A DNA stretch of 64,000 nt from assembly GCA_029779475.1 (NCBI GenBank), contig JAKPAN010000033.1, positions 1-64,000 of the forward strand. The letters run 5' to 3'. Source of the stretch: Pseudomonadota bacterium (GTDB taxonomy: Bacteria > Pseudomonadota > Gammaproteobacteria > Xanthomonadales > Rhodanobacteraceae). The position numbers were made by a program, and so were the translations under genes. The notes beneath the pieces are model-generated. The model did not search any database. It was given only the letters and a program-made list of their open reading frames with translations, and was not told the DNA's origin. How positions within the stretch are numbered: the stretch's first letter is position 1; every line of letters begins with the position of its first letter. Positions 38,762 to 53,689 of the stretch are shown here, in pieces.

Positions 38762-39388
38762 GACTGCCAATTCCCCGATCCCCAACGATTTTGGCAGTGT
38801 AAATGAAAAGTTATGGGCAGGAAAACGAACTGCGTCGCAAGGCGCCGGCTGGGCCGCAGAGCCGCGACTCGCAGGATCCCAAGGCGGAGGTATAACTCCG
38901 TATTTGTAGAAATGTGACGGAATCGACATTTCGTGACAGGATCCTGATTGTGTCGCGCCCGAGCCCGCGCTTCATCGCGAAGCCTCAGGCGCTGGCACAC
39001 GACTTGCTCGCCTGCTCTTGCCGACGTCGCGCAGGGTGTTCGCGCAAGCGGTAGATGGGCAGGACGCCGAACCGCGTCGTGCCTTTGGGGCTCCAGGGGG
39101 CGTGACGGTCGCTGCAACGGCGGCTCGAGCGCAGGGGATTCGATTCATGGATTTCGAGTCGAAGAGGTTCGTTGCAGCACGCACGACGGCATCCGCATGC
39201 CGCGGCGCGTCCGTCTGCGCGCACCGTATCCGCAACCCGCTTCCGCGTGATGGGACATTCGTCCGCGTCGCCCCTCCTTGTCCACGTTTTCGTCTTCGCC
39301 GCTCTCGCAGGCACGGCTCGTCCGTGCGCGCCGGCGGCGGTTGTCCTGCGGCGCTGGTCGGCGCCGCTCCAGAAACAGGGAGTTCGCC

Positions 39389-42300
39389 ATGCGCACCATC
39401 CGTGAATTGCTGAGCGCTCTTGCGCAGGCCGGCAACGGCTTGACCGAGCCACGCCGGGAGCGGCGCTCCGACTCGGCATCGGGCACACCGCCGACCGCAC
39501 ACTCAGCAGTCTGCCCGCGCAGGCTCGCGAGCGGACTGCTGTGCCTGCTGGCGATGTCGGCCGGGCCGGCGACGGCAGCGGATTGGTATGCGTCGCCTTC
39601 GGGCAATGACACCAATGCCTGCGACAGCGCGGGTGAGCCATGCAAGACAATTCAGGCCGCGATCAGCAAGGCGGGCGCAAACGACACGGTCCATGTGGGG
39701 CAGGGTGCTTACCCGTTCGCTGGCACTATCCAGATTCCGTCCACAAAGAACGGCTTGAAACTCATCGGCGACAACTCGCCATTTGCTTCATCAAGCACGC
39801 CGGGCAACGTCTCTCCAGCGGCCAATGCATCGCAACTCTCGGCAGCCAGTTCCTGCGCCGGCCTGACCTGCACCGGCATGATCTGGATCAACGGCGCACA
39901 GGATGTCGTCATCCAGAACCTTTTCCTGCGGGTCAACCACGGTAAGTCCAACGAAGGCATCGTGGCAACCGGCAACGTCAACGGGCTGGTGTTGCGCAAC
40001 AACTATCTGCAGATCACGGCCACCGGCGGCAAGACAAATGCGATCTCGCTGAACATGGCTGCTGGCAGCAATTCAGACCAGAATTCGACCGGCGGGAGCC
40101 CTTATTACAGCGGCATCTACGTCACGCTGGACGGCAATGTCGTGCAGCCGACCGGCACTGTTGCCTCGTCGCGCGCGGTCGTCAGCGACTACGTGGCAGG
40201 CGTCTTCCATGCGAACCAGTTCGCCGGTTCCAGCCAGGATATGCGTTTGCGCTACCTGACGGCGAACGCTCGCGGTTCGGGCTTCGACATCGATGGCAAT
40301 TACGTTTACGGCGCCGGTCTGTGGATCACGACACCGAACGATGGATCGTCGCTCGTCCATATCCACAACAATCATTTCATCGCCCCCGGCACGCCGGGCG
40401 CCCCGGCGTCGCCACTCAACGCGAGCAGCGTGCTGGATCCGGACTTCGCCAGCCTCAAGCTGGTCGGTTCGAGCAATCCGACCATTGTCGAGAACAACGA
40501 ATTTGCGGGCTATGCAAACCGTTATCGCGGCCTGTGGATCCAGAACTGGTCGGGCGTGACGATTCGGGACAACGTGTTCACCCCGAACGCGAATTACAAC
40601 GGCCTGTCGTCGGCGATACTCGTCGGCAACAAGGAAGTCTGGAACGGCGCACCGGCGCCGCGTCAGCTTGCGGTGACGTTGTTGCGCAATACGTTCAACG
40701 CAGGCTATGCCAACGCGAACAGTCGCGCGATCGTGTTCATCGATGACAACGACGCTTCCGGCACGGCGACGGCGGGATCCCTGCTCGTCGGCGACGCCAA
40801 CGCAGCGAATGCGAACAATTTCGCGACGGGACTCAAGTGGTACGTAGGCCTCGATGAACACACTTGCAATGCCGGCGGCAGTGGATTGAATTGCTCGACC
40901 GCTGCGCCGACCAATTCTCCGCTCGGCGTGGGTATCAACTACACCTCGGGCAGCAGCGGAAATACACAGGGCCGGCCGTTCAAGTGGGACGTGGCCGCGC
41001 TCGGCAACAAGTTCGGCGGCAAGCTTGTCGCGGACATGACGCCGGCGGAATACACCGCTATTGCCGGCAAGATTTACGACAAGGTCGACAATTCGGCGCT
41101 GGGCAAGGTCGATTACGGTTCGATGCCGGTTTCCACGACGGGAACCATCAATTTCTCGCCGACGACCTTCGCCTACAACGGACAGCCGCATGCGATCTCG
41201 GCGACGTTGCAAGAAGACAATTCCGCTACCTGCGACGTTACGCCCGAAACCGTCACGGCGGTGGGTTCGACTCCGGTCAACGCCACTTGCACGAGCCCGG
41301 GCTATCACGTCACCGCGTCTGTCGACATCAACGTGACCAAGGGTGTCGGTAACGCGCGGCTTTCGGAAACCTCATTCACCTACGCGGCGGCGGACATCGT
41401 TTTGCTGCCGTCGATGGTCGAAGAATCCGCGAGTTGCAGCGCCACTCCGCCGACCGTGCGCGACGCGGGTCACTACAGCATCCATGTCACTTGCGCGGGC
41501 TCGAACTACGATGCGGACAGTACCGTTGGTGTGGACGTGGCCAAAGCCGCTTCGCACATCGTGCTGAACCCGACATCGTTCACTTACGACAACACCGAAC
41601 ACGCGCTGCATGCGCAACTCGCCGACGAAAGTAGCGCGGCTTGCGCGGGCGTCGCGCCTGCGAGTGTGCGCACGGTCGGCTCGCACGAGGTGAGCGTGCC
41701 CGCGTGCGATGGCGTCAACTACATGGCGCCGGCGGCGAACCTGACCGCAACAGTCGACGGCGGCGCAAACGCCGTGCGTCGCGTGAGCAGCCACGGACAG
41801 GCCGACGCGTTCTTCTCGACCATCGACGCCGCGCTGGCGGATGTCGGCACGCAAGACGGCGACACGCTCGAAATGGCGCCCGGCGTCTACTCCGGCGGCA
41901 TCGTGCTGACCAAGGGCATCAAGCTTGTCGGCAGCGGCGGTTACGACACGCCGATGTTCGGACTCTCGCTGCTGGCAGATCCGACGCCGAACGTCGTCCT
42001 GGACGGCGGCAACGCGGCTGCGACGGGCATTGCCATCGCCCCGAACGTGCAGGGCGTGGAAATCACCGGCTTCGAGATCAGGAACTTCACGGGCGACTGC
42101 ATATCCGGCGCGCAGGGCAATCATTTCCTGTCCGTGCATGACAACCTCGTCCATCACTGCGGCAACTGGGGCGTCTACGCCAACGGCATCGCCGGCATCC
42201 ACGACGTGACGATCGCGCACAACGCCGTGCATGACACCGGTGATCGCGCCATCGTGCTGTGGAACGGATTCAAGCGCGACATCGAAATCACCGAAAACCA

Positions 42301-45300
42301 CGTATGGAATGCCGGCACAACCGCGATCTCGCTCGACGACGGCTCGGCAGCGGGCATCGCGATTACCGACAACACGATCGAGGACAGCGGCGACACCGGC
42401 ATTTCGGCGCTCCAGCTGACGGGCAGTGGCATGCCGGGCGACCCGTCCGGCCCGAACCTGATCGCGCATAACACGATCAGCAATCCCGGCCGCTTCGGCA
42501 TCACGTTGATGATTCCGAACGGTACCGGCAACGACAGCGGCGACGGTGCGATCGTGGTCGAGCACAACGACATCACGGGCGGCGCGAATTCTGGCGGCTA
42601 CGCGTCGGATCGCGCGGGCATTTCCGTGGTGCGCCGTTACTACGGCGGCGCTGCGCAGGGTCAAGTCGATGCGACGTCGGGCGTGGTCATCCGAGACAAC
42701 ACGGTCGCGGACTTTAACCACACGGCCAATGCCAACCATGAAGCCTACGGCATCGTCGTCGAAGGTCTGGGATCGTCCGTGTATCGCAACACGCTGACCA
42801 ACAACCAGATCGGCCTGCAGATCCAGCAGGGCAACGCGGGCTATCCCGGCAACTCGACGGTCGACGCGACCGAACACAGCGACTGGTTCGACCGCGGCGA
42901 CGCGCCGTATACCTGCGTAAGCCTCGGTCAGGGTGCCGACGCCAACGACATTCTCAGCAACACGACGCCGCAGCGCGAAGTGCCGCTCGGCGCCGCGATG
43001 ATCGGCGAGCGTGTCGAAAACATGACCACGCATGCGCGCTACTGCTCGATCAATTCCGCGATCGCCGCCGCGGTGGACAACGACGTGCTCGTGGCCGACG
43101 CCGGCGTGTATGCCGAAGATGTGGTCATCAACAAGGCCATCACGCTGAAAGGCGCCAAGGCCGGCATCAACGCCGGTGTCGGCGGCTCGCGCGACGGCAA
43201 TGGCGCGGGCGAAACGATCCTAGTGCCGGCGAATGAGGAAGGCGGTCTCACGCTCAGCTCGTATGGCAAGGCGGTTGTCAAGATCAATGCCGACGACGTC
43301 ACGCTCGACGGCTTCGTCATCGACACCGACAACACCGCCATCGACAGCCATATCGACCTCAATGGCGCTGGCCCGGACGTGTCCGGCGGCGTCTTCGCCA
43401 ACGGCAACGGCCTCACGTTGACCAACCTCGTCGTGCGCAATGCGATCTACGCGGGCATCGACGGCGGTTACGACAACGGCCAGCCGGCGCAGGACGGCAA
43501 CGGCATCAGCGACAGCCGCTTCATCAACTGCGACGGCGCCAGCTACGGTATCGGCATCGCACTGGAGCAGAACTTCTACGCCAAGGTGACCGGAAACCGC
43601 ATGGACGCAGTGCGCACCGGCATTCAGCTCGATAACAACTATCAGGCGGCGCCGACGGCCAACTATGCGCCGGAACTGAGCGGCAACCAGATCCAGGCCA
43701 AGCGCGTCGGCATCTGGGCGAACCTGTTCTATCAGAGCGCCTCGACCTATCACGTCACCAACAACACGATCACTGCGGCAAGCGGCGGCGCGGGCCAATG
43801 GAGCGGCATCTGGGTCGAGTCGATGCAGGATGCGCAAACGATCGAACTCGCCTCGAACACGATCGACGCCAGCGGCGCCGATGCAGGCCGCACGCGCGTC
43901 GGCTACCTGCTCAACAACATCGTCAGCAGCGCTGCTTCGTCTGCCGCCATCGGCGGTGGCGGTGTGAGCAACGTCGACATCGGCGTGTTGGCGACCGACG
44001 CAACGCGCTATACGGGTTCGGTCAACGACTTCGTGGTGCGCGACGTCGATTTCGTGAACATCGCCAAGGGCGCGCTCTACGTCGAGGACACGACGCAGAC
44101 GCCAGGTTCGGCGAAGCTGACCATGGGCGCGGGCAACACCTTCGGCAGCAACGTCGCGCACAAGCTCGTGCTGTCCGGCACGGCGCCCGAGGCGAGCGGC
44201 GCCGTGGACGAAGTCTTCGTCCGCTCGGCGCGCGACTTCGTGTTCGGCGCGGCGGTCAGCAGCGCCGGCAACCCGGTGTGCTACGCCAATGCCGGCGCGC
44301 CGTTCTGCGCGGTCGCCAACGCCTCGATCAACGCTGGCATCGCCGCGGTTTCCGCGGGTGGCACGGTGAACGTCGAAAGCGGCACGTTCGCCGAGAACGT
44401 GGTCGTCGGCAAGCAGGTCGCGCTGCAGGGTCCGCACTTCGGCGTCGCTGGCGACGCGGGTGCGCGCGGCACGGGCGAGGCGATCATTTCGCCGGCCAGC
44501 GGCAATGGCGTCAAGGTGCTGGCCGATGGCGTCGTAGTCGATGGCCTCACGGTGCAGAACACCCAAGACAACGCGATCGTCTCCGGCGGCAACTTCGGCG
44601 GCGCTTCCGCGAGCGTGTCGATCATCAACAACCGCGTGCTCGACGTGCAGGCCGGCAACGGCATCTACACGAACGGCCCGTACCCCGCAGCGACGGACTG
44701 GACGATCCGGCACAACCTCGTCCGCAACGTCGTCTCCAACATCGGTTCCGGCATCAACTACTGGGCCGCGTCGGGTGGTCTGGTCGCGGACAACCACGTC
44801 GAGCAGTCAGGCTTCGCCGGCATCCAGGCAGTGAATTCGCGCAACGTGCAGGTACTGCACAACACGATCGCGAGCACCGCGCACAGCGGCATCAATGTCG
44901 GCACGACCAACGCGGGCGCGATCGCCGATGCGCTGACGGTCATCGGCAACAGTCTGAGCGACACCAACACCGGCGCCAGCGTCGCCGAAGGCGGCCTGAC
45001 GCTCAGCGATGGCGCGACCAACGTCGTCTTTGCGTGCAACAGCGTCGCCGGCAACGGCAGCAACGGCTTCGCCACCGGCGCGGGCAGCGCGAGCGCGAAG
45101 GTGTTCCACAACGCGTTCACGACAGCCAACTCGATCAGCCAGAACCAGGGCGGCAGTTTCGCCATCGGCTCGAACTGGTACGGCGGTGGCGTGGCCACCA
45201 TCGGTGGCGGCAACGCGGCCGGCGCACGCGTCGCTGATGTGCTCGGGTCGAACCCGATCGGCAACGCGAACTGCGGCGACAACACGCCCACGCAGCTCGT

Positions 45301-48300
45301 GGCGGCGGTCGGCAGCACGCCCCAGAGCGCGCCGGTGAACACGGCATTCGGTTCCGTCCTGCGTGCGCGTCTCGAAGACGCGCTCGGCGGTGCGGTGGCA
45401 GGCGAGGTGCTCACGTTCACGGCCCCCGTCAGTGGCGCCAGCGCGACGCTTGGCACCAGCAGCGGCAGCACCAACTACAACGGCGAAGTCACCAGCACGG
45501 CCACCGCGAACGCGACCGCCGGAGGCCCCTACAACGTCGCCGTCGACAGCGGCAGCCTGCATGCGGCTTTCGCGCTGACCAACACGCAAGGTTCGGCGAC
45601 GATCACGCTCGGTAATCTGAATCAGGACTACACCGGTGCGCCGCGCGACGTTTCGGTCGCGACGAATCCGGTCGGCCTCGTCACCTCGATCACGTACACG
45701 CCGGCGGGCCATACCAATGCCGGAAGCTACGCGGTACACGCGGAAATCACCGATCCGAACTACAGCGGTTCGGCCGATGGCACGCTGACGATCACCAAGG
45801 CGACCGGTACGGTCGCGTGGGACAACACCAGCTTCGTCTACAGCGGTTCGTCGCCGACGGTCACCGCGCACATCGCCGAGGAAAGCGGCGCGACCTGCAC
45901 GGTGAGCGGCACCGTGGGTCCGAACGTCGGCAACTATCCGGTCAGCGCGAACTGCACCAGCAGCAACTACAACGCCAGCGGCAGCACGGCGGTGACCATC
46001 ACGCCGCAGCCTACGACGATCACGCTGTCGCACCTCAGCCAGCCGTACGACGGCGCGCCGAAGTCCGTGGTCGCGACGACCTCGCCGACGGCGGGTGTTG
46101 CGGTGGCGATCACCTACAACGGCAGCGCCGCACCGCCGACCGCGGTCGGCTCGTATGCGGTCGCCGCAACCGTGACAAACGCGAACTACAGCGGCTCAGC
46201 CACCGCCACGCTGAACATCGTCGACAGCAACGGCGACATCGCGCTCGTGCTCAACGGCCCGGTCGATCCGATCCACGTCGGCGACAAGGCGCAGTACGCG
46301 GCGACGATGCTGGCCAACCCGCTGCTGCATGCGGGTGAGCGCTTCGGCTACGACGTCGTCGTCAGCAAGTCGAATGGCACTCCTCTGGCGGCCACCGATC
46401 TGGCGACGATGGAAGTGTTCTACGGTGGTGACTGGGTCGACTCGGCGGCGCTGTTCCCGGCGGGCGTGCCGTTCGATCTGGTCGACGGCAACCTCGTCTA
46501 CCATTTCCCCGAGGGTATTCCGGGCTACGCCAACGGCTTCCCGATCGAGGACGCGAGCTGGACGTGGAACTTCCGCTTCGCGTTCGCGACGGAGGGCACG
46601 TACACGACTACGGCGACGCTGGTGCAGGGCATCGGCGGCGCGGCGATGAGTCCGCCGGTGTCTGCATCGATCGCGACCGTGGTCAAGGCGGCGCTGCCGC
46701 CGACCGACATCCACCTCGTGCTGGCCGGTCCGGCCGACCACGTCGTGCTTGGCAATGTGGCGGAGTACACCGGCACGATGCTGGCCAATCCGGCGTTGCA
46801 CGCGGGCGAGACGTTCTTCGTCAAGGTCGCCATCGGCAAGAGCGGTGGCGCAATGACGGCGGCCGACTTCACCTCTATGCAGATCTGGCTCGGCGACCGG
46901 TGGGTGAACGGTTCCGACCTTGGCGTCACGTTCACGTCCGACGGCAACGGCAACCTGGTCTATCTGTTCCCGCAGTCGCAGTTGCCGGGTGGTTTCCCCA
47001 TCGAGGACGCGCAGTGGTCGTGGAACTTCCGCTTCGTCTACGCCAGCACCGGCGTATACACGGCGACGGCACAGGTGATTCCGGCCTATCAGGCGAACCT
47101 CGCCAATCCGGACGTGCTCGCCAGTGCGGCGATCGCGACCACAGTGGACGCGGCGCCGATCGTGCCGCCGACCGCGCACCTGGTGTTGCTCGGGCCAGTC
47201 GACGACGTGCAGGCGCATACGCCCGCCGAGTACACCGGCACGCTGGTCGCCGACCACACGCAGCTCACGAGCGCCTACTGGATGCGCGTGCGTCTGTCGA
47301 AGACGGGCGGCGCGATGACGCCCGCCGACCTCGAGAAGATGGAGATCTACGCTGGCACCTGGATCGATGCGACCGGGGATATCCATAGCGCGATGCAGCA
47401 GGACGGCAACGACGTCGTCTACTACTTCCCGCAGCCGAACGGGGCATTCACGATCTCCGACGACGTGTGGAGTTGGCGCTTCCGCTTCACCTACGCCGAT
47501 GCAGGCGAATACACGGCCGTCGCTGATCTCGTCGACTGGGTCGAGGTCGATCCGCTCACGGCACCTTCGCTCGCGCATGCGTCGCTGACGACGAACGTCG
47601 TGCCGCAGGCCGCGAACATCCAGATCGCGCTGCAGGGCCCGGTCGCCGGCATCGTCGTCGGCCAGCCGGCGCAGTACGTCGGCACGCTGCGCGCCGATCC
47701 TCTGCCGGATGCGTCCGAGCTGTTCTTCGTGCAGGTACGCCTGCACAAGAGCACTGGCCAGATGCAGGTGTCCGACCTGTCGAAGATGGAGTTGTACAAC
47801 GGCGGCTGGCAGGACGCGACCGCGACGCTGCAGGGTGAATTCGCCCAGGATCACGGCGATCTCGTCTACCTGTTCCCGAAACCCGAGGCCGATGCCGGCT
47901 TCCCGATCGACGAGCCGGAGTGGAGCTGGCAGTTCCGTTTCACCTACGCCGATGCAGCCGTCTATACGGCCACAGCGCAGGTCGTGCATGCGAGCGACCT
48001 GAGTCCTGCATCCGATGCGGTGACGATCTTCACCGATGTCGCGCCGCAGCCGGCCGATGTCGCGTTGCAACTCAACGGCCCAGTCGCAGACGTGCAGGCA
48101 AATGAGCCGGCCGCCTACATCGGTCGCCTCACCAACACCGGCGCTGCGCTGGGCGAGAACGCCTACGTCAAAGTCCACATCACGCTCGACAACGACCTGC
48201 TCACGCCGGCCGACGTCACCGCAGAAGTGCTGGTCGGTGGCGACTGGTTCGTCGGCTCGCTGGCATCGGACGGCAATGGCGGCCTCGTCGTTGATTTCCC

Positions 48301-51300
48301 GGATGCGAGCGGTTTCCCGATCGACGCCGGCTACGACTACACGCACCATTTCCGCATCACCTACCACAAGACCGGCATGTTCAGCGCGACGGCTCAGGTC
48401 ATCGGTGTGGGCAGCGGCGATGTCTATGCGACCTCGGGCATCCACACGCAGGTCGTCGCGCGCAGCAATGTGACCGTGCAGGTGCTCATCGACCCGGCCT
48501 CGCTGCATGCGGTCTACGACGGCGGTCAACATGCCGCGGCGGCGACTACGCTGCCGGCCGGCCATCCGCTCGTTGTCACCTATGACGACGGCAGCGGTCC
48601 AACCACGATGGCGCCGACCAACGCCGGCACCTATGTCGTCATCGCGGGCGTCGATGTCGGCGATGCGCCTTACGTCGGTTCGGCTTCGGCGATCCTCGTC
48701 ATCGACAAGGCGCCAAGCGCCATCACGATCAACGGCGCCGATCTGCATCAGAGCTACGGCTCGACCCACGCCGTCAGCGCGAGCGCGAGCCCGATCAGCA
48801 GCGGCCACGTCGACGTGACCTACAACGGCAGCGCGACGCCGCCATCGGCCGTCGGCACGTACTCGGTACTGGCGACGCTGGTCGATCCGAACTACACGGC
48901 CGCGCCGAAGAGCGCCGTACTGACGATTTCCGACGCCGCCGCCATCACGATCACGGCCGAGTCCTCGCAGGCGATGGCGCTGGTCGGTGAAGACGCGCCG
49001 TACACCGATTTCGTCGACTACACCGGCACGTTGCGCAACACGGGCGAGCCGACCAGCCAGAAGGTGCACACGGTCATCAGCGTCGTGCGCATCGACGACG
49101 GCAACACGACGGGCGAAAACCCGATCGCGATCGACGCGGCCGATGTCGAGGCCTGCATCTATGACCCGAGCGGCTGGGACGCGCAGGATCCGGGCAACCA
49201 CAACGGCTGTCCGCAGGACTACGAGTCGCTGGTGTTCAGCCAGGGCAGCGGCGCGGTCAACGGCCGTCCGGCGGTCACGTTCCGTTATCCGGTCAACCCG
49301 GCCTACGATCAGGCGCTGCCGACGATCGATCCGGCCGCGATCACACCGCCCGCGAAGTTCCGCTTCAAGCGCGGCGACTACCAGGTGCACGTGAGCCTCG
49401 TCGGCACGGACGGCACGGTCTACGCGAGCGCGTTCGACGGCACGACCGTGCCGGAGGCGTCGATCGCCTATGCCGGCGCGACCAGCGGCCAGGCCGAAGA
49501 TGCGCTGCTTTCGCAGACGCGTCTGCGCAACACGGGCGGCCGCGTCGACGGCAACGTGATCGTGCGTGTGACGCTGTCGGATGCCGCTTCCGGTCCGGGC
49601 AACGTGGTTCCGCTCGACGCGAGCGACGTCGACTTCGCCTACCAGCTCGGCGACAGCTACGTCACGCTGCCGTGGGCCGGCAACGCGGTCGATGGCGGAC
49701 TCGTCACCTACTTCGGCCCGGTCAGCGGCTTCCCGCTCGAAGATGGCTACGACGCGACCACCGCAGGCCGCGGCATCTTCCATCGCGAAGGCAGCTATCG
49801 CCTGACCTATGAAGTGCTCGATGCGGCGACGCAGACGACGATGTTCGCGCACAGCGTGACGGCGCCGCTGACGATCGGCCCGAATCAGGTCAACTTCACG
49901 TTGAGCGACCTGTCGCAGGTCTACGACGGCACGCCGCGCACGGTCACCGTCACGCCGAACGGCGTGCCGCATACGACCGTGTACGAGCCGCTGCTCGGCG
50001 CGAGCTGTCCGGCTTCGCCGGCCGGTTCGAACACGACGCCGCCGACCAACGCGGGCGCGTACTGCGTGTACGTGAACGCGACGGGCACCTATCAGGGCAC
50101 CGCGCAGGGCACGCTGGTCATCGCCAGGGCGAACGTCGTCGTCACGCTCGACGACAACGACGGCACCATCGACGGCACGATCCACCGCACCTTCGACGGC
50201 CATCCGCAGACCGTCAGCAGCGGCGTGCAGAATCTGCCGGCCGTGCTCGCCCGCGTCACCTACAACGGTGATGTGCTCCCGCCGACGGCTGCGGGCACGT
50301 ACAGCGTCGTTGCCACGGTCGATGAGCCGAATTACACCGGCAGCACGAGCGGCACGCTCATCATCGCCGCGGACGGCGGCGCGACGATCGTGCTCGACGG
50401 CGCAGTCGCCGGCACGATCACGCGCACGTACAACGGCAGCGCGCAAGCGGTGACCGCGACCACGACGCCGGCTGGCATCGCCAACACGGTGACCTACGTC
50501 GGCGACGGCGCGACGGTCTATCCGCTGTCGACGACGGCGCCGACCAACGCCGGCCAATACCACGTCGTCGCGACGACGACCGACGCGAACTACACGCCGG
50601 TCAGCGCCAGCGGCACGCTGGTCATCGGCGCCGCGAGTGCGGCGATCACCCTCGATGCGGGCACGCTGTCGGCGACATACGACGGCCAGACGCACGCCGT
50701 CACCGCGACGACGAACCCGCCGGATCTCGCCTACAGCGTGACCTACGACGGCAGCGTGACGCCGCCGGTCAGCGCGGGCAGCTACGCCGTCGTCGCGACG
50801 GTGACCGCACCCGGTCGCAGCGGCAGCGCGAGCGGCACGCTCACGATCGCCAAGGCAACGGGTGTGGTCAGCTTCAGCGCGACCAATGCGACCTTCGACG
50901 GCACCAGCCATTCGATCGGCGCCGTGATCTCGCAGGAGCCAACCAACGGCGCCGCCTGCACGCTGACGCCGACCGGCGAGTACCCGCGCATCAATGCGGG
51001 CAGCACGACGCTCAGCGCGACCTGCAACGGCGCGAACTACACCGCAAGCGGCAGCACGACGCTGATGGTGTCGCCCAAGCCGGTCACGATCGCGTTGTCG
51101 GGCCTCGGTTCGTTCCCGTACACCGGCAGCCCGTACGCCGCGATGGCCGCGGTCAGCGGCGAGGTTTCCGGCTTCCCGGCCGGCACGGTCGTGACCTATG
51201 CGCCGGGTGGCGCGAGCGCGCCGATCGCAGTCGGCAGCTACGACGTCGTCGCGACACTCGATGCAGCGTCGACCAACTACACGGCCACGCCCGCGAACGG

Positions 51301-53044
51301 CACGATCATCATCGGTGCCGCGAACGCGACGGTCACGCTCGGCAACCTCGCGCAGACCTACGACGGCACGCAGCGCGCGGCGACGGCATCGACGATGCCG
51401 CCCAATCTCGCGGTCAGCCTGACCTACGACGGCAGCGCGACGCCGCCGATCAGCGCGGGCACCTACACCGTCGTCGCCACGATCACGCAGCCGGGTTACA
51501 GCGGCAGCGCGAGCGGCACGCTGGTGGTGTCGAAGAAGGCGGAGACGGTGACGTTGGCGAACCTGTCGGCAACCTACGACGGCAATTCGCACGCGGCCAG
51601 CGCGACGACGTCGCCGGACACGGTCGCCGTCACGATCACCTACGACGGCAGCACGACGGCACCGACGAACGCGGGCAGCTATGCGGTCGTTGCGAACGTC
51701 TCCGACGCCAACCACAGCGGTTCGGCGAGCGGCACGCTGACCATCGCCAAGGCCTCGGCGACGGTGGCGCTGTCGAACCTGACGCAGATCTGGGACGGCA
51801 CGGCGCGCCCGGTCACGGTGACGACGACGCCGAACGTGACGACCAGCGTGACCTACGACGGCAGCGCGACCGCGCCGACCGACGTCGGCACGTACAGCGT
51901 AGCCGCGACGGTGACCGACCCGAACTACACCGGCAGCGCGAACGGCACGCTGCACGTCGTCAATGGCGACGCGCAGGCCATCGCGGCCAACGGTGCCACC
52001 ACGTTCACCGGCACCGCCGGCCAGCCGCTCGCGGGCGCGCTGCCGTCGGTCAAGGTCACCGACGCGGGCGGCCATCCGGTCGCGGGCATCGCGGTCACGT
52101 TTGCGGCTGCATCCGGCAACGGCACGCTCAGCGGTGCGACGCAAAGCACCGACCAGAACGGCATCGCCACGCTCAGCGGCTGGACGCTCGACGCGACACC
52201 GGGCACCGACACCGTCACGGCCAGCGCGGCCGGCGTCACCGGCGCGGTCACCTTCACCGCCAACGGCGCGGCGGCGAGTGGTGCGCTCAGCGTGACGATC
52301 ACCGACAACCGCACGGCGACGCAGGTCGGTCGCGAGTTGACGTACACGATCACGATCGGCAATGCCGGCTCGTCGAACATGAGCGGCATCCACGTCGCCG
52401 ACACGCTGCCCGCCGAACTCGACGGCGCGAACGCGCACTGGCAGTGCATCGCCGTCACCGGCGCGAGCTGCGCGGCGAGCGGCAACGGCGATCTCGACCA
52501 GACGGTCAGCCTGCCGGCCCACAGCAGCGTGATCTATCTGCTCACTGCGACGGTGATCGGCGAGGACGCGAGCGGCCTGGTCAGCAACAGCGTCGAGGTG
52601 ACCAACGGCAGCGACGCGATCACCCGCACGGACGACACCGCGGTCGTGCTGTTCCGCGACGGCTTCGAGCTCGGCGGCGACGGTTCCGAACCGTGGCCGG
52701 CCGGCGCGGCCGTCGTCGCGCTCGGTTCGCTCGATGCCGCGCATGCGCTCGATGTCGGCGTCGACGCCGCGCAGCTCGGTTCGCTGCAACGCGTGACGCT
52801 CGCCCAGGCCGGCGACGGCACGTTCCGCATCGAGGCGATCCGCATCGACGCGACCGTCTACGTCCGCCTCGTCGCGCGCACCGCGCAAGGCGAAGCGGCG
52901 ACCGAGTGGAGCGCGCTCGGCGGCGACCACGTCGCGCTCGTCCTCGACGGTGCGCGCCTCGACCTCGTCGGCGCCAAAGCCGATCTCGGCCTCACGCTCG
53001 CGCAGGGCGGCACGTTCGCGGTCGGCGGCGTGTCGCGTCACTGA
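39389..53044 (+). CDS. Giant (about 4,551 aa) secreted mosaic protein: parallel beta-helix, MBG repeats, unassigned ~150-aa tandem repeats, Big_1 and DUF11-like domains
   Basis: Single ORF; extended signal region MRTIRELLSALAQAG...RRLASGLLCLLAMSAGPATAADWYASPSGNDTNACDSAGEPCKTIQAAISKA; MBG units such as TITLGNLNQDYTGAPRDVSVATNPVGLVTSITYTPAGHTNAGSYAVHAEITDPNYSGSADGTLTITKA; ends near FRDGFELGGDGSEPWPAG plus a ~110-aa tail. Good terminator follows. Confidence 0.93.
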   Translation: MRTIRELLSALAQAGNGLTEPRRERRSDSASGTPPTAHSAVCPRRLASGLLCLLAMSAGPATAADWYASPSGNDTNACDSAGEPCKTIQAAISKAGANDTVHVGQGAYPFAGTIQIPSTKNGLKLIGDNSPFASSSTPGNVSPAANASQLSAASSCAGLTCTGMIWINGAQDVVIQNLFLRVNHGKSNEGIVATGNVNGLVLRNNYLQITATGGKTNAISLNMAAGSNSDQNSTGGSPYYSGIYVTLDGNVVQPTGTVASSRAVVSDYVAGVFHANQFAGSSQDMRLRYLTANARGSGFDIDGNYVYGAGLWITTPNDGSSLVHIHNNHFIAPGTPGAPASPLNASSVLDPDFASLKLVGSSNPTIVENNEFAGYANRYRGLWIQNWSGVTIRDNVFTPNANYNGLSSAILVGNKEVWNGAPAPRQLAVTLLRNTFNAGYANANSRAIVFIDDNDASGTATAGSLLVGDANAANANNFATGLKWYVGLDEHTCNAGGSGLNCSTAAPTNSPLGVGINYTSGSSGNTQGRPFKWDVAALGNKFGGKLVADMTPAEYTAIAGKIYDKVDNSALGKVDYGSMPVSTTGTINFSPTTFAYNGQPHAISATLQEDNSATCDVTPETVTAVGSTPVNATCTSPGYHVTASVDINVTKGVGNARLSETSFTYAAADIVLLPSMVEESASCSATPPTVRDAGHYSIHVTCAGSNYDADSTVGVDVAKAASHIVLNPTSFTYDNTEHALHAQLADESSAACAGVAPASVRTVGSHEVSVPACDGVNYMAPAANLTATVDGGANAVRRVSSHGQADAFFSTIDAALADVGTQDGDTLEMAPGVYSGGIVLTKGIKLVGSGGYDTPMFGLSLLADPTPNVVLDGGNAAATGIAIAPNVQGVEITGFEIRNFTGDCISGAQGNHFLSVHDNLVHHCGNWGVYANGIAGIHDVTIAHNAVHDTGDRAIVLWNGFKRDIEITENHVWNAGTTAISLDDGSAAGIAITDNTIEDSGDTGISALQLTGSGMPGDPSGPNLIAHNTISNPGRFGITLMIPNGTGNDSGDGAIVVEHNDITGGANSGGYASDRAGISVVRRYYGGAAQGQVDATSGVVIRDNTVADFNHTANANHEAYGIVVEGLGSSVYRNTLTNNQIGLQIQQGNAGYPGNSTVDATEHSDWFDRGDAPYTCVSLGQGADANDILSNTTPQREVPLGAAMIGERVENMTTHARYCSINSAIAAAVDNDVLVADAGVYAEDVVINKAITLKGAKAGINAGVGGSRDGNGAGETILVPANEEGGLTLSSYGKAVVKINADDVTLDGFVIDTDNTAIDSHIDLNGAGPDVSGGVFANGNGLTLTNLVVRNAIYAGIDGGYDNGQPAQDGNGISDSRFINCDGASYGIGIALEQNFYAKVTGNRMDAVRTGIQLDNNYQAAPTANYAPELSGNQIQAKRVGIWANLFYQSASTYHVTNNTITAASGGAGQWSGIWVESMQDAQTIELASNTIDASGADAGRTRVGYLLNNIVSSAASSAAIGGGGVSNVDIGVLATDATRYTGSVNDFVVRDVDFVNIAKGALYVEDTTQTPGSAKLTMGAGNTFGSNVAHKLVLSGTAPEASGAVDEVFVRSARDFVFGAAVSSAGNPVCYANAGAPFCAVANASINAGIAAVSAGGTVNVESGTFAENVVVGKQVALQGPHFGVAGDAGARGTGEAIISPASGNGVKVLADGVVVDGLTVQNTQDNAIVSGGNFGGASASVSIINNRVLDVQAGNGIYTNGPYPAATDWTIRHNLVRNVVSNIGSGINYWAASGGLVADNHVEQSGFAGIQAVNSRNVQVLHNTIASTAHSGINVGTTNAGAIADALTVIGNSLSDTNTGASVAEGGLTLSDGATNVVFACNSVAGNGSNGFATGAGSASAKVFHNAFTTANSISQNQGGSFAIGSNWYGGGVATIGGGNAAGARVADVLGSNPIGNANCGDNTPTQLVAAVGSTPQSAPVNTAFGSVLRARLEDALGGAVAGEVLTFTAPVSGASATLGTSSGSTNYNGEVTSTATANATAGGPYNVAVDSGSLHAAFALTNTQGSATITLGNLNQDYTGAPRDVSVATNPVGLVTSITYTPAGHTNAGSYAVHAEITDPNYSGSADGTLTITKATGTVAWDNTSFVYSGSSPTVTAHIAEESGATCTVSGTVGPNVGNYPVSANCTSSNYNASGSTAVTITPQPTTITLSHLSQPYDGAPKSVVATTSPTAGVAVAITYNGSAAPPTAVGSYAVAATVTNANYSGSATATLNIVDSNGDIALVLNGPVDPIHVGDKAQYAATMLANPLLHAGERFGYDVVVSKSNGTPLAATDLATMEVFYGGDWVDSAALFPAGVPFDLVDGNLVYHFPEGIPGYANGFPIEDASWTWNFRFAFATEGTYTTTATLVQGIGGAAMSPPVSASIATVVKAALPPTDIHLVLAGPADHVVLGNVAEYTGTMLANPALHAGETFFVKVAIGKSGGAMTAADFTSMQIWLGDRWVNGSDLGVTFTSDGNGNLVYLFPQSQLPGGFPIEDAQWSWNFRFVYASTGVYTATAQVIPAYQANLANPDVLASAAIATTVDAAPIVPPTAHLVLLGPVDDVQAHTPAEYTGTLVADHTQLTSAYWMRVRLSKTGGAMTPADLEKMEIYAGTWIDATGDIHSAMQQDGNDVVYYFPQPNGAFTISDDVWSWRFRFTYADAGEYTAVADLVDWVEVDPLTAPSLAHASLTTNVVPQAANIQIALQGPVAGIVVGQPAQYVGTLRADPLPDASELFFVQVRLHKSTGQMQVSDLSKMELYNGGWQDATATLQGEFAQDHGDLVYLFPKPEADAGFPIDEPEWSWQFRFTYADAAVYTATAQVVHASDLSPASDAVTIFTDVAPQPADVALQLNGPVADVQANEPAAYIGRLTNTGAALGENAYVKVHITLDNDLLTPADVTAEVLVGGDWFVGSLASDGNGGLVVDFPDASGFPIDAGYDYTHHFRITYHKTGMFSATAQVIGVGSGDVYATSGIHTQVVARSNVTVQVLIDPASLHAVYDGGQHAAAATTLPAGHPLVVTYDDGSGPTTMAPTNAGTYVVIAGVDVGDAPYVGSASAILVIDKAPSAITINGADLHQSYGSTHAVSASASPISSGHVDVTYNGSATPPSAVGTYSVLATLVDPNYTAAPKSAVLTISDAAAITITAESSQAMALVGEDAPYTDFVDYTGTLRNTGEPTSQKVHTVISVVRIDDGNTTGENPIAIDAADVEACIYDPSGWDAQDPGNHNGCPQDYESLVFSQGSGAVNGRPAVTFRYPVNPAYDQALPTIDPAAITPPAKFRFKRGDYQVHVSLVGTDGTVYASAFDGTTVPEASIAYAGATSGQAEDALLSQTRLRNTGGRVDGNVIVRVTLSDAASGPGNVVPLDASDVDFAYQLGDSYVTLPWAGNAVDGGLVTYFGPVSGFPLEDGYDATTAGRGIFHREGSYRLTYEVLDAATQTTMFAHSVTAPLTIGPNQVNFTLSDLSQVYDGTPRTVTVTPNGVPHTTVYEPLLGASCPASPAGSNTTPPTNAGAYCVYVNATGTYQGTAQGTLVIARANVVVTLDDNDGTIDGTIHRTFDGHPQTVSSGVQNLPAVLARVTYNGDVLPPTAAGTYSVVATVDEPNYTGSTSGTLIIAADGGATIVLDGAVAGTITRTYNGSAQAVTATTTPAGIANTVTYVGDGATVYPLSTTAPTNAGQYHVVATTTDANYTPVSASGTLVIGAASAAITLDAGTLSATYDGQTHAVTATTNPPDLAYSVTYDGSVTPPVSAGSYAVVATVTAPGRSGSASGTLTIAKATGVVSFSATNATFDGTSHSIGAVISQEPTNGAACTLTPTGEYPRINAGSTTLSATCNGANYTASGSTTLMVSPKPVTIALSGLGSFPYTGSPYAAMAAVSGEVSGFPAGTVVTYAPGGASAPIAVGSYDVVATLDAASTNYTATPANGTIIIGAANATVTLGNLAQTYDGTQRAATASTMPPNLAVSLTYDGSATPPISAGTYTVVATITQPGYSGSASGTLVVSKKAETVTLANLSATYDGNSHAASATTSPDTVAVTITYDGSTTAPTNAGSYAVVANVSDANHSGSASGTLTIAKASATVALSNLTQIWDGTARPVTVTTTPNVTTSVTYDGSATAPTDVGTYSVAATVTDPNYTGSANGTLHVVNGDAQAIAANGATTFTGTAGQPLAGALPSVKVTDAGGHPVAGIAVTFAAASGNGTLSGATQSTDQNGIATLSGWTLDATPGTDTVTASAAGVTGAVTFTANGAAASGALSVTITDNRTATQVGRELTYTITIGNAGSSNMSGIHVADTLPAELDGANAHWQCIAVTGASCAASGNGDLDQTVSLPAHSSVIYLLTATVIGEDASGLVSNSVEVTNGSDAITRTDDTAVVLFRDGFELGGDGSEPWPAGAAVVALGSLDAAHALDVGVDAAQLGSLQRVTLAQAGDGTFRIEAIRIDATVYVRLVARTAQGEAATEWSALGGDHVALVLDGARLDLVGAKADLGLTLAQGGTFAVGGVSRH
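46232..48470 (+). repeat. Five tandem ~140-158-aa repeat units inside the giant protein
   Basis: Units start about 46232, 46706, 47174, 47615, 48056; shared xIxLxLxGPVxxVxxxxxAxYxGTL...MTxADLxxMEIyxGxWxxx...GNLVYxFPxxxGFPIxDxxWSWxFRFTYAxxGxYTATAQV. Confidence 0.85.
49885..51955 (+). repeat. Array of MBG-type repeats (about 70 aa each)
   Basis: Repeated [V/I]TLxNLxxTYDGxxxxVTATTxPxxxxxxVTYDGSxTxPxxAGxYxVVATVTxxNYxGSASGTLxIxKA; additional MBG-like units at about 41130-41760, 45595-46215 and 48475-48940. Confidence 0.85.
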
Positions 53045-53084
53045 GTCGGCGGGATCGCGGACCCCAGGCCGCGGTTTTGCCACG

Positions 53085-53112
53085 ATCCCCGCCGAAAGGC
53101 GGGGATTTTTTA
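53085..53112 (+). terminator. Rho-independent terminator of the giant gene
   Basis: ATCCCCGCC-gaaa-GGCGGGGAT followed by TTTTT (GNRA-type tetraloop). Confidence 0.93.
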
Positions 53113-53185
53113 TTGGGGTCGGTTGTGGCCTGATAGAATGACGGCCTCGCTTGCATTCGCGGCCGCGCAGCCGCACTTCCCGCCC

Positions 53186-53689
53186 ATGGCCCTGCTCACA
53201 ATCCTCGAATTCCCCGATCCGCGCCTGCGCACCAAGGCGCAACCCGTGACCGTGTTCGACGCCGCGCTCAAGCAGTTCGTCGCCGACATGTTCGAGACGA
53301 TGTACGCCGCGCCCGGCGTCGGCCTTGCCGCGACCCAGGTCAACGTGCACCAGCAGGTGCTGGTCATGGACATGTCCGAGGACAAATCCGGCGCGATGGC
53401 GCTCGTCAATCCGCGCATCCTCGAAAAGGACGGCGAGCAGGTCTTCCAGGAAGGCTGCCTGTCGTTCCCCGGCATCTACGCTGACGTCGACCGCGCGCTG
53501 CACGTGAAGGTCGCCGCGCAGGACGTCGACGGCAAGGAATTCGTCCTCGACGTCGAAGGCCCGCTCGCGGTCTGCGTGCAGCACGAGATGGACCACCTCC
53601 AGGGCAAGGTCTTCGTCGACTACCTCTCGCCGCTCAAGCGCTCGATGCTGCTCAAGAAGCTCGACAAGAAGCGCAAGCAGAGCGCTTGA
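53186..53689 (+). CDS. def: Peptide deformylase
   Basis: [47 protein letters not shown]: all three deformylase motifs. Confidence 0.97.

Follow-up and report, generated by a model that had tools for sequence, protein, structure and literature searches.

The window examined here, a stretch of 64,000 nucleotides, carries a single open reading frame (ORF) of 13.6 kb, which raises the question of what kind of protein it encodes and how so long a chain could leave the cell. We found that the ORF, at 39389-53044 (+), runs from ATG to TGA over 4,551 aa with zero internal stops, and that its codon positions differ in composition (GC3 0.86 vs GC2 0.53), indicating real coding bias; the one uninterrupted frame described in the initial annotation is thus a real ORF. 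The longest open frame, counted from the first TTG, spans 39278-53044; translation probably begins with the ATG at 39389, as annotated previously. An antisense open frame of 2,466 aa lies opposite the giant gene (46196-53596, -); we rejected it as a gene, as the codon-position bias suggests a mirror frame of GC-rich coding. The gene is flanked by housekeeping genes, with topA-dprA-lysM (minus strand) on one side and def-fmt-rsmB on the other, and a search for a plasmid origin gave zero matches. The source genome is a metagenome-assembled genome (MAG) of 335 contigs, 86.7% complete, of apparent Dokdonella type (order Lysobacterales); placement among named relatives (Dokdonella spp., Pseudofulvimonas gallinarii, and Tahibacter harae) makes Dokdonella the most likely genus. 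The features of the gene are as follows.

39377-39382 (+): AGGGAG, ribosome-binding-like by sequence, 6 nt ahead of the ATG at 39389
39389-39577 (+): N-terminal region, Sec signal peptide; h-region LASGLLCLLAMSAG, ATA/ADWY; long n-region, about 45 aa
39578-41128 (+): BH1, beta-helix head at the N-terminus, about 520 aa (weak Pfam match to DUF1565; AF2; Foldseek)
41129-41758 (+): MBG block a, two clear repeats and one divergent repeat, paired Cys
41759-42988 (+): BH2 beta-helix (Pfam Beta_helix, E 1.7e-12)
42989-44308 (+): BH3 beta-helix (Pfam NosD, E 9e-4, below cut-off)
44309-45283 (+): BH4 beta-helix (Pfam Beta_helix, E 1.6e-9)
45284-45598 (+): Big_1-like domain 1 (Pfam E 1.6e-4, below cut-off)
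45599-46219 (+): MBG block b, three repeats
46235-48463 (+): REP, five repeats of ~150 aa (no Pfam match)
48494-48916 (+): MBG block c, two repeats
48941-49882 (+): REPb, two divergent repeats of ~150 aa
49892-51958 (+): MBG block d, nine repeats
51974-52279 (+): Big_1-like domain 2 (Pfam E 5e-8, just below cut-off; AF2 beta-rich, pLDDT >90)
52280-52648 (+): DUF11 domain (Pfam E 1.9e-11)
52643-52684 (+): C-terminal tag VVLFRDGFELGGDG, with the core FRDGFE at 52652-52669, invariant in relatives
52694-53041 (+): CTD, C-terminal beta domain of ~110 aa (no Pfam match)
53084-53107 (+): intrinsic terminator between the giant gene and def, a 10-bp stem followed by TTTTATT

The protein is modular, and its recognised domains are of extracytoplasmic types only. 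Most relatives share the hydrophobic stretch of the signal peptide and, after it, (A)xA-(A)DWY. At least 16 MBG repeats with regularly spaced Cys pairs are distributed over four blocks (MBG_3, 14 Pfam stretches, E 2e-212), and the DUF11 domain was also matched at E 1e-9 by Pfam. The five REP units share 31-49% identity, and the two divergent REPb units are at 17-29%; neither REP nor the CTD had any match in Pfam. Toward the C-terminal end, a Big_1-like domain, DUF11, VLFRDGFELGGDG, and the 110-aa CTD follow one another. Pfam and repeat mapping therefore agree with the anatomy proposed initially, namely beta-helix regions, MBG-like repeats in four separate blocks, a distinct ~150-aa tandem repeat (now five units and two divergent ones), and Big_1-like (below cut-off) and DUF11-like domains; the FRDGFE motif, the CTD beyond it, and the Big_1-like domain at 45284-45598 are additions to it.

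Fibrillar adhesin-like proteins carry an adhesive head on a long stalk of repeats. The giant resembles them in its N-terminal head, its many tandem MBG, Big, and Ig-like repeats (at least 16 MBG, 2 Big_1-like, a DUF11, and 7 REP units), its extreme length, and the variation of that length between species. It differs in lacking LPXTG, an autotransporter barrel, RTX, and a TPS signal, and in having a beta-helix head, with FRDGFE and the CTD in place of a known anchor. Judging from its sequence, we regard it as a new, unusually long, mosaic variant of this class, and both its export and its modularity are well supported.

We then asked which export route the sequence allows. Pfam gave zero matches to a TPS (haemagglutination activity) N-terminal domain in the giant, and TpsB (PF03865) was found neither in the whole MAG nor in the complete congener G007, and was absent from the tag-bearing genera of the family. 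The giant resembles TpsA exoproteins and filamentous haemagglutinins as a very large secreted beta-helix protein, but it has no TPS domain, TpsB is missing, and the beta-helix is only part of the chain. No autotransporter C-terminal beta-barrel was matched by Pfam, the C-terminus being an Ig-like chain plus the CTD, and searches for RTX repeats or a known T1SS C-terminal signal and for a T9SS type A/B sorting domain gave zero matches in Pfam and NCBIfam. Similarly, NCBIfam found no PEP motif, transmembrane helix, or basic tail, and the sequence has no hydrophobic C-terminus. TPS, autotransporter, RTX, T9SS, and PEP-CTERM export were rejected because the domains or signals are absent and TpsB is missing from the genome. 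In addition, a scan of the neighboring genes recognised neither TpsB nor a T1SS or autotransporter, in agreement with the earlier statement that no dedicated secretion partner is recognisable in the window.

The more surprising part of the giant protein is its tag. In the MAG, F.[DN]GFE had 26 matches, against 1 for the reversed control. These are loci L048-L073 of genome G000. The tag lies 0-15 residues before the stop in 18 of 24 tagged proteins of the MAG (usually 0-5), and within 15 residues of the stop in 29 of 30 order-wide examples, with the consensus logo D-L-I-F-A-[DN]-G-F-E. In three proteins of the MAG (L105, L113, and L123:1609-2523), it is near the N-terminus, directly beyond the region predicted as signal peptide. 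Two others (L108 and L120) carry it internally; these copies indicate a portable peptide, not a part of one fold. Where the 5′ end is intact, most tagged proteins have a signal peptide, and the proteins are otherwise unrelated: S8 peptidases, a PHB-depolymerase-like esterase, Kelch, delta-60, and choice-of-anchor Q proteins. Seven further long proteins of the MAG (L124-L129 and L112; about 1,090-1,860 aa, some truncated where a contig stops) carry a variant of the tag (mostly VIFRDGFD; also VIFRNGFD, VIFRDGLD, and VILRDGFD) before a related CTD of ~110 aa. Tandem pairs 27-33 bp apart occur in family f9 (G237:C44:24638/24671, G203:C17:340953/340983, L087, and L095), where the second copy is sometimes degenerate (IFKNGYD, IFANDFE).

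The stricter motif IFx[DN]GFE was present in 95 of 200 genomes of the order, with copy numbers of 0-58 per genome and almost zero control matches. Outside the order, the tag was found in 4 of 112 genomes with one match each, which corresponds to background; within the class, it is thus common in Lysobacterales and close to background outside that order. We found no description of it in the literature searched, and no NCBIfam sorting-signal model matches at the tag. (D)LIFx[DN]GFE is therefore a candidate uncatalogued sorting tag restricted to Lysobacterales. Like PEP-CTERM, GlyGly-CTERM, the T9SS CTD, and LPXTG, it is a short C-terminal signature common to many unrelated exported proteins, and its abundance is lineage-dependent; unlike them, it has no transmembrane segment or basic tail and is sometimes N-terminal or internal. 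We infer that the FxxGFE peptide is probably an address label for the export of unrelated proteins.

A possible reader of such a label emerged from the secretins. GspD is nearly universal in the order and falls into two separable classes, XpsD-like and canonical (LNLKDADI...). When a profile of canonical GspD was run against the tag counts of the same 200 genomes, tags were abundant in 30 of the 35 genera with canonical (non-XpsD) GspD and in 1 of the 34 without it (p = 3e-13). The split was clean in families f1 and f2: in the family of the window, all five genomes with canonical GspD had tags and none of the 29 without it did, and the corresponding fractions in f2 were 1/1 and 0/34. The MAG itself has a canonical GspD, broken by a contig end (G000:C38), in addition to other gspD matches. 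These values are to be read as a correlation among related genomes; in fact, TpsB, expected to be unrelated, showed a weaker, negative association with the tag (p = 8e-4), indicating that lineage alone yields some signal. Genera g31 and g28 have canonical GspD without tags, so that the secretin is not sufficient for the tag, although it may be necessary. Canonical GspD went undetected in ten genomes with three or more tags, mostly fragmented MAGs. Neither a shared tag-reader gene beside canonical gspD, looked for by rough ORF clustering and gene listing, nor an obvious dedicated accessory gene beside the canonical gsp genes, looked for by eye, emerged.

According to PMC11981180, T2SS export has no known conserved signal. 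Published work also speaks against a linear tag, in that substrates lack a universal linear signal and carry the information in folded domains (PMC12369372, PMC11981180), as in the Ig-fold of VesB (PMC12369372). The giant resembles substrates such as VesB (PMC12369372) in its predicted Sec export and its Ig-like domains near the C-terminus, and its tagged relatives include extracellular enzymes; it differs in that a linear, near-invariant tag of this kind is not described in PMC11981180 or PMC12369372. It combines a signal peptide (by sequence) and folded domains (AF2) with a T2SS secretin in the genome. Its size counts against this route, as a folded fibre of ~450 kDa would be an unusually large T2SS cargo. 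The export route, initially called unclear, can thus be narrowed: TPS is unsupported in the genus as sampled, autotransporter, RTX, and T9SS signals are absent, and the tag follows canonical GspD. At present, the link between tag and T2SS is a lead, not a demonstration.

The analysis establishes the ORF, its modularity, the recurrence, position, and taxonomic limits of the tag, and its co-occurrence with the secretin; sorting, T2SS dependence, and adhesion enter the following account as suppositions. The giant would reach the periplasm via Sec, as its clear signal peptide suggests. The N-terminal beta-helix blocks may serve as a head that binds or processes glycans, with the MBG, REP, Big_1, and DUF11 units as an Ig-like stalk, both by analogy of fold and family. 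VLFRDGFE would then serve as a flexible, exposed C-terminal sorting tag ahead of a compact beta domain, the CTD, and a canonical T2SS, distinct from the Xps type, would recognise or handle it, taking the protein across the outer membrane or displaying it there. The gene evolves fast, by head swapping and by fusion or fission of two neighbors, with the C-terminal end of each product kept. That the giant is a Sec-exported, modular adhesin-like fibre sorted in this manner through a canonical T2SS by its linear tag is quite possible, and we hold it as a working reading. More tentatively, (D)LIFx[DN]GFE could be an uncatalogued Lysobacterales sorting signal in general, read by canonical T2SS, with the fibre among its largest cargoes and with tag loss in lineages that lost this T2SS (Xps-only genera).

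Somewhat doubtful, but still a serious competitor, is the reading that FxxGFE is a retention, processing, or anchoring tag unrelated to T2SS recognition, for example a site for a protease or transpeptidase, or a peptide that binds a partner in the outer membrane or peptidoglycan, and that the giant surfaces by another route. The tag is short, usually C-terminal, and sometimes tandem or directly behind the signal peptide, as such a tag might be. Furthermore, it directly follows or replaces the end of the choice-of-anchor Q domain, a class whose NCBI name reflects different anchors in different lineages, and no hydrophobic or basic tail lies beyond it, unlike in PEP-CTERM or GlyGly-CTERM. What this reading leaves unexplained is the genus-level match with canonical GspD, unless the anchor partner and the secretin were co-inherited.

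We also investigated what the head and the C-terminal end may look like. The AF2 model of BH1 is a right-handed beta-helix (pLDDT 80, pTM 0.87), whose best Foldseek matches in the PDB were RbmB lyase and AlgE4 epimerase, with the adhesin PfbA also matched; these matches are generic for beta-helices (query TM-score ≤0.45, identity 9-16%). They raise the alternative, somewhat doubtful in our judgment, that the giant is less an adhesin than an extracellular enzyme acting on polysaccharides, in which a long spacer carries lyase- or epimerase-like beta-helices. Against this, the generic matches extend to PfbA, and the invariant columns of BH1 among relatives are mostly G, N, hydrophobic residues, and Cys; inspection by eye showed no cluster of Asp/Lys/Arg among them. 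Searches by sequence gave no solved relative for BH1 or the CTD, and the modelled fold of BH1 is compatible with glycan binding only. The initial suggestion of a surface or released adhesin or glycan-interacting protein thus fits the Sec signal peptide, the extracytoplasmic domains, and the BH1 model, with adhesion itself as a putative role.

The model of the Big_1-DUF11-tag-CTD region (pLDDT 89) contains the CTD as a confident beta domain, and its Foldseek matches were limited to generic Ig chains and two adhesins, InvE and FdeC. Its sole stretch with pLDDT <50 is residues 234-244, i.e., the tag, which is disordered. This bears on the quite improbable view that the tag is no more than a conserved final strand or linker in extracytoplasmic domains, with no sorting role and a distribution due to common descent: the strong lineage structure of the tag would suit it, but the tag is disordered in the model, lies on unrelated folds, and occurs at both ends or between domains. 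Moreover, unless a common reader selects for it, the near-invariance of F-x-[DN]-G-F-E among unrelated proteins would be difficult to account for.

Relatives of BH1 were found in 8 of 61 sampled genomes, including that of the window, and the CTD profile matched in 27 of 148 genomes of the family; the giant therefore does not stand alone. In the split layout, two genes lie adjacent in either order: gene A has BH1, MBG, usually Big_1, DUF11, the tag, and usually the CTD (878-1,678 aa where complete), and gene B has other heads, REP, MBG, Big_1, DUF11, the tag, and the CTD (2,668-3,230 aa where complete). Fused single ORFs occur in the window (4,551 aa), Pseudofulvimonas (5,078), G009 (5,327), and G111 (3,430), and the isolate Tahibacter harae has a comparable long form of 4,318 aa. 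The comparison of length and domain order proposed at the outset thus yields about 880 to 5,327 aa, split or fused by species. Every full-length relative has hhFR[DN]G[FL]E at the end of its Big_1/DUF11 region, while heads and stalk vary. In the shorter A genes of L137 and L138, the tag stands at the very end and the CTD is absent, making the tag the more constant element of the two. Two relatives are broken at contig ends within MBG repeats (G002:C35 and G005:C31); short-read assemblies therefore probably under-count genes of this kind.

The locus itself is variable. The lysM-def junction is empty in six congeners, in which lysM and def are direct neighbors; in the window (upstream side, 38930-39388), the giant gene lies between them. 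Family members lie beside lysM in G004 and G005, and beside def in G011. In the BH1 tree, the window groups among split A genes (100/99), and the fused or split state requires at least three changes; in the BH2 tree, the window pairs with Pseudofulvimonas (100/100). As the nearest relatives of BH1 in the window are not those of its BH2, the protein of the window is a mosaic, with a head from split-type genes, a remainder nearest to Pseudofulvimonas, and heads exchanged over a kept C-terminal end. It is very improbable that an assembly artefact falsely merged two adjacent genes, as the two genes at this locus in G004 and G005 and the fragmentation of the MAG into 335 contigs might suggest, given that the fused BH1-MBG-BH2 order recurs in the isolate Pseudofulvimonas gallinarii DSM 21944 and in the MAGs G009 and G111, that the T. 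harae isolate has its long form, and that the window combines differently related BH1 and BH2 with zero frameshifts or stops.

This split or fused, head-swapping family provides a natural series for the evolution of very long surface fibres. The tag would also provide an annotation rule, by which exported Lysobacterales proteins could be listed by their last residues, and it indicates an export route for the giant. If the proposed link is true, a near-invariant peptide of 6-9 residues, present on dozens of unrelated exported proteins in one order and tracking one secretin type, would make the question of the T2SS signal directly testable.
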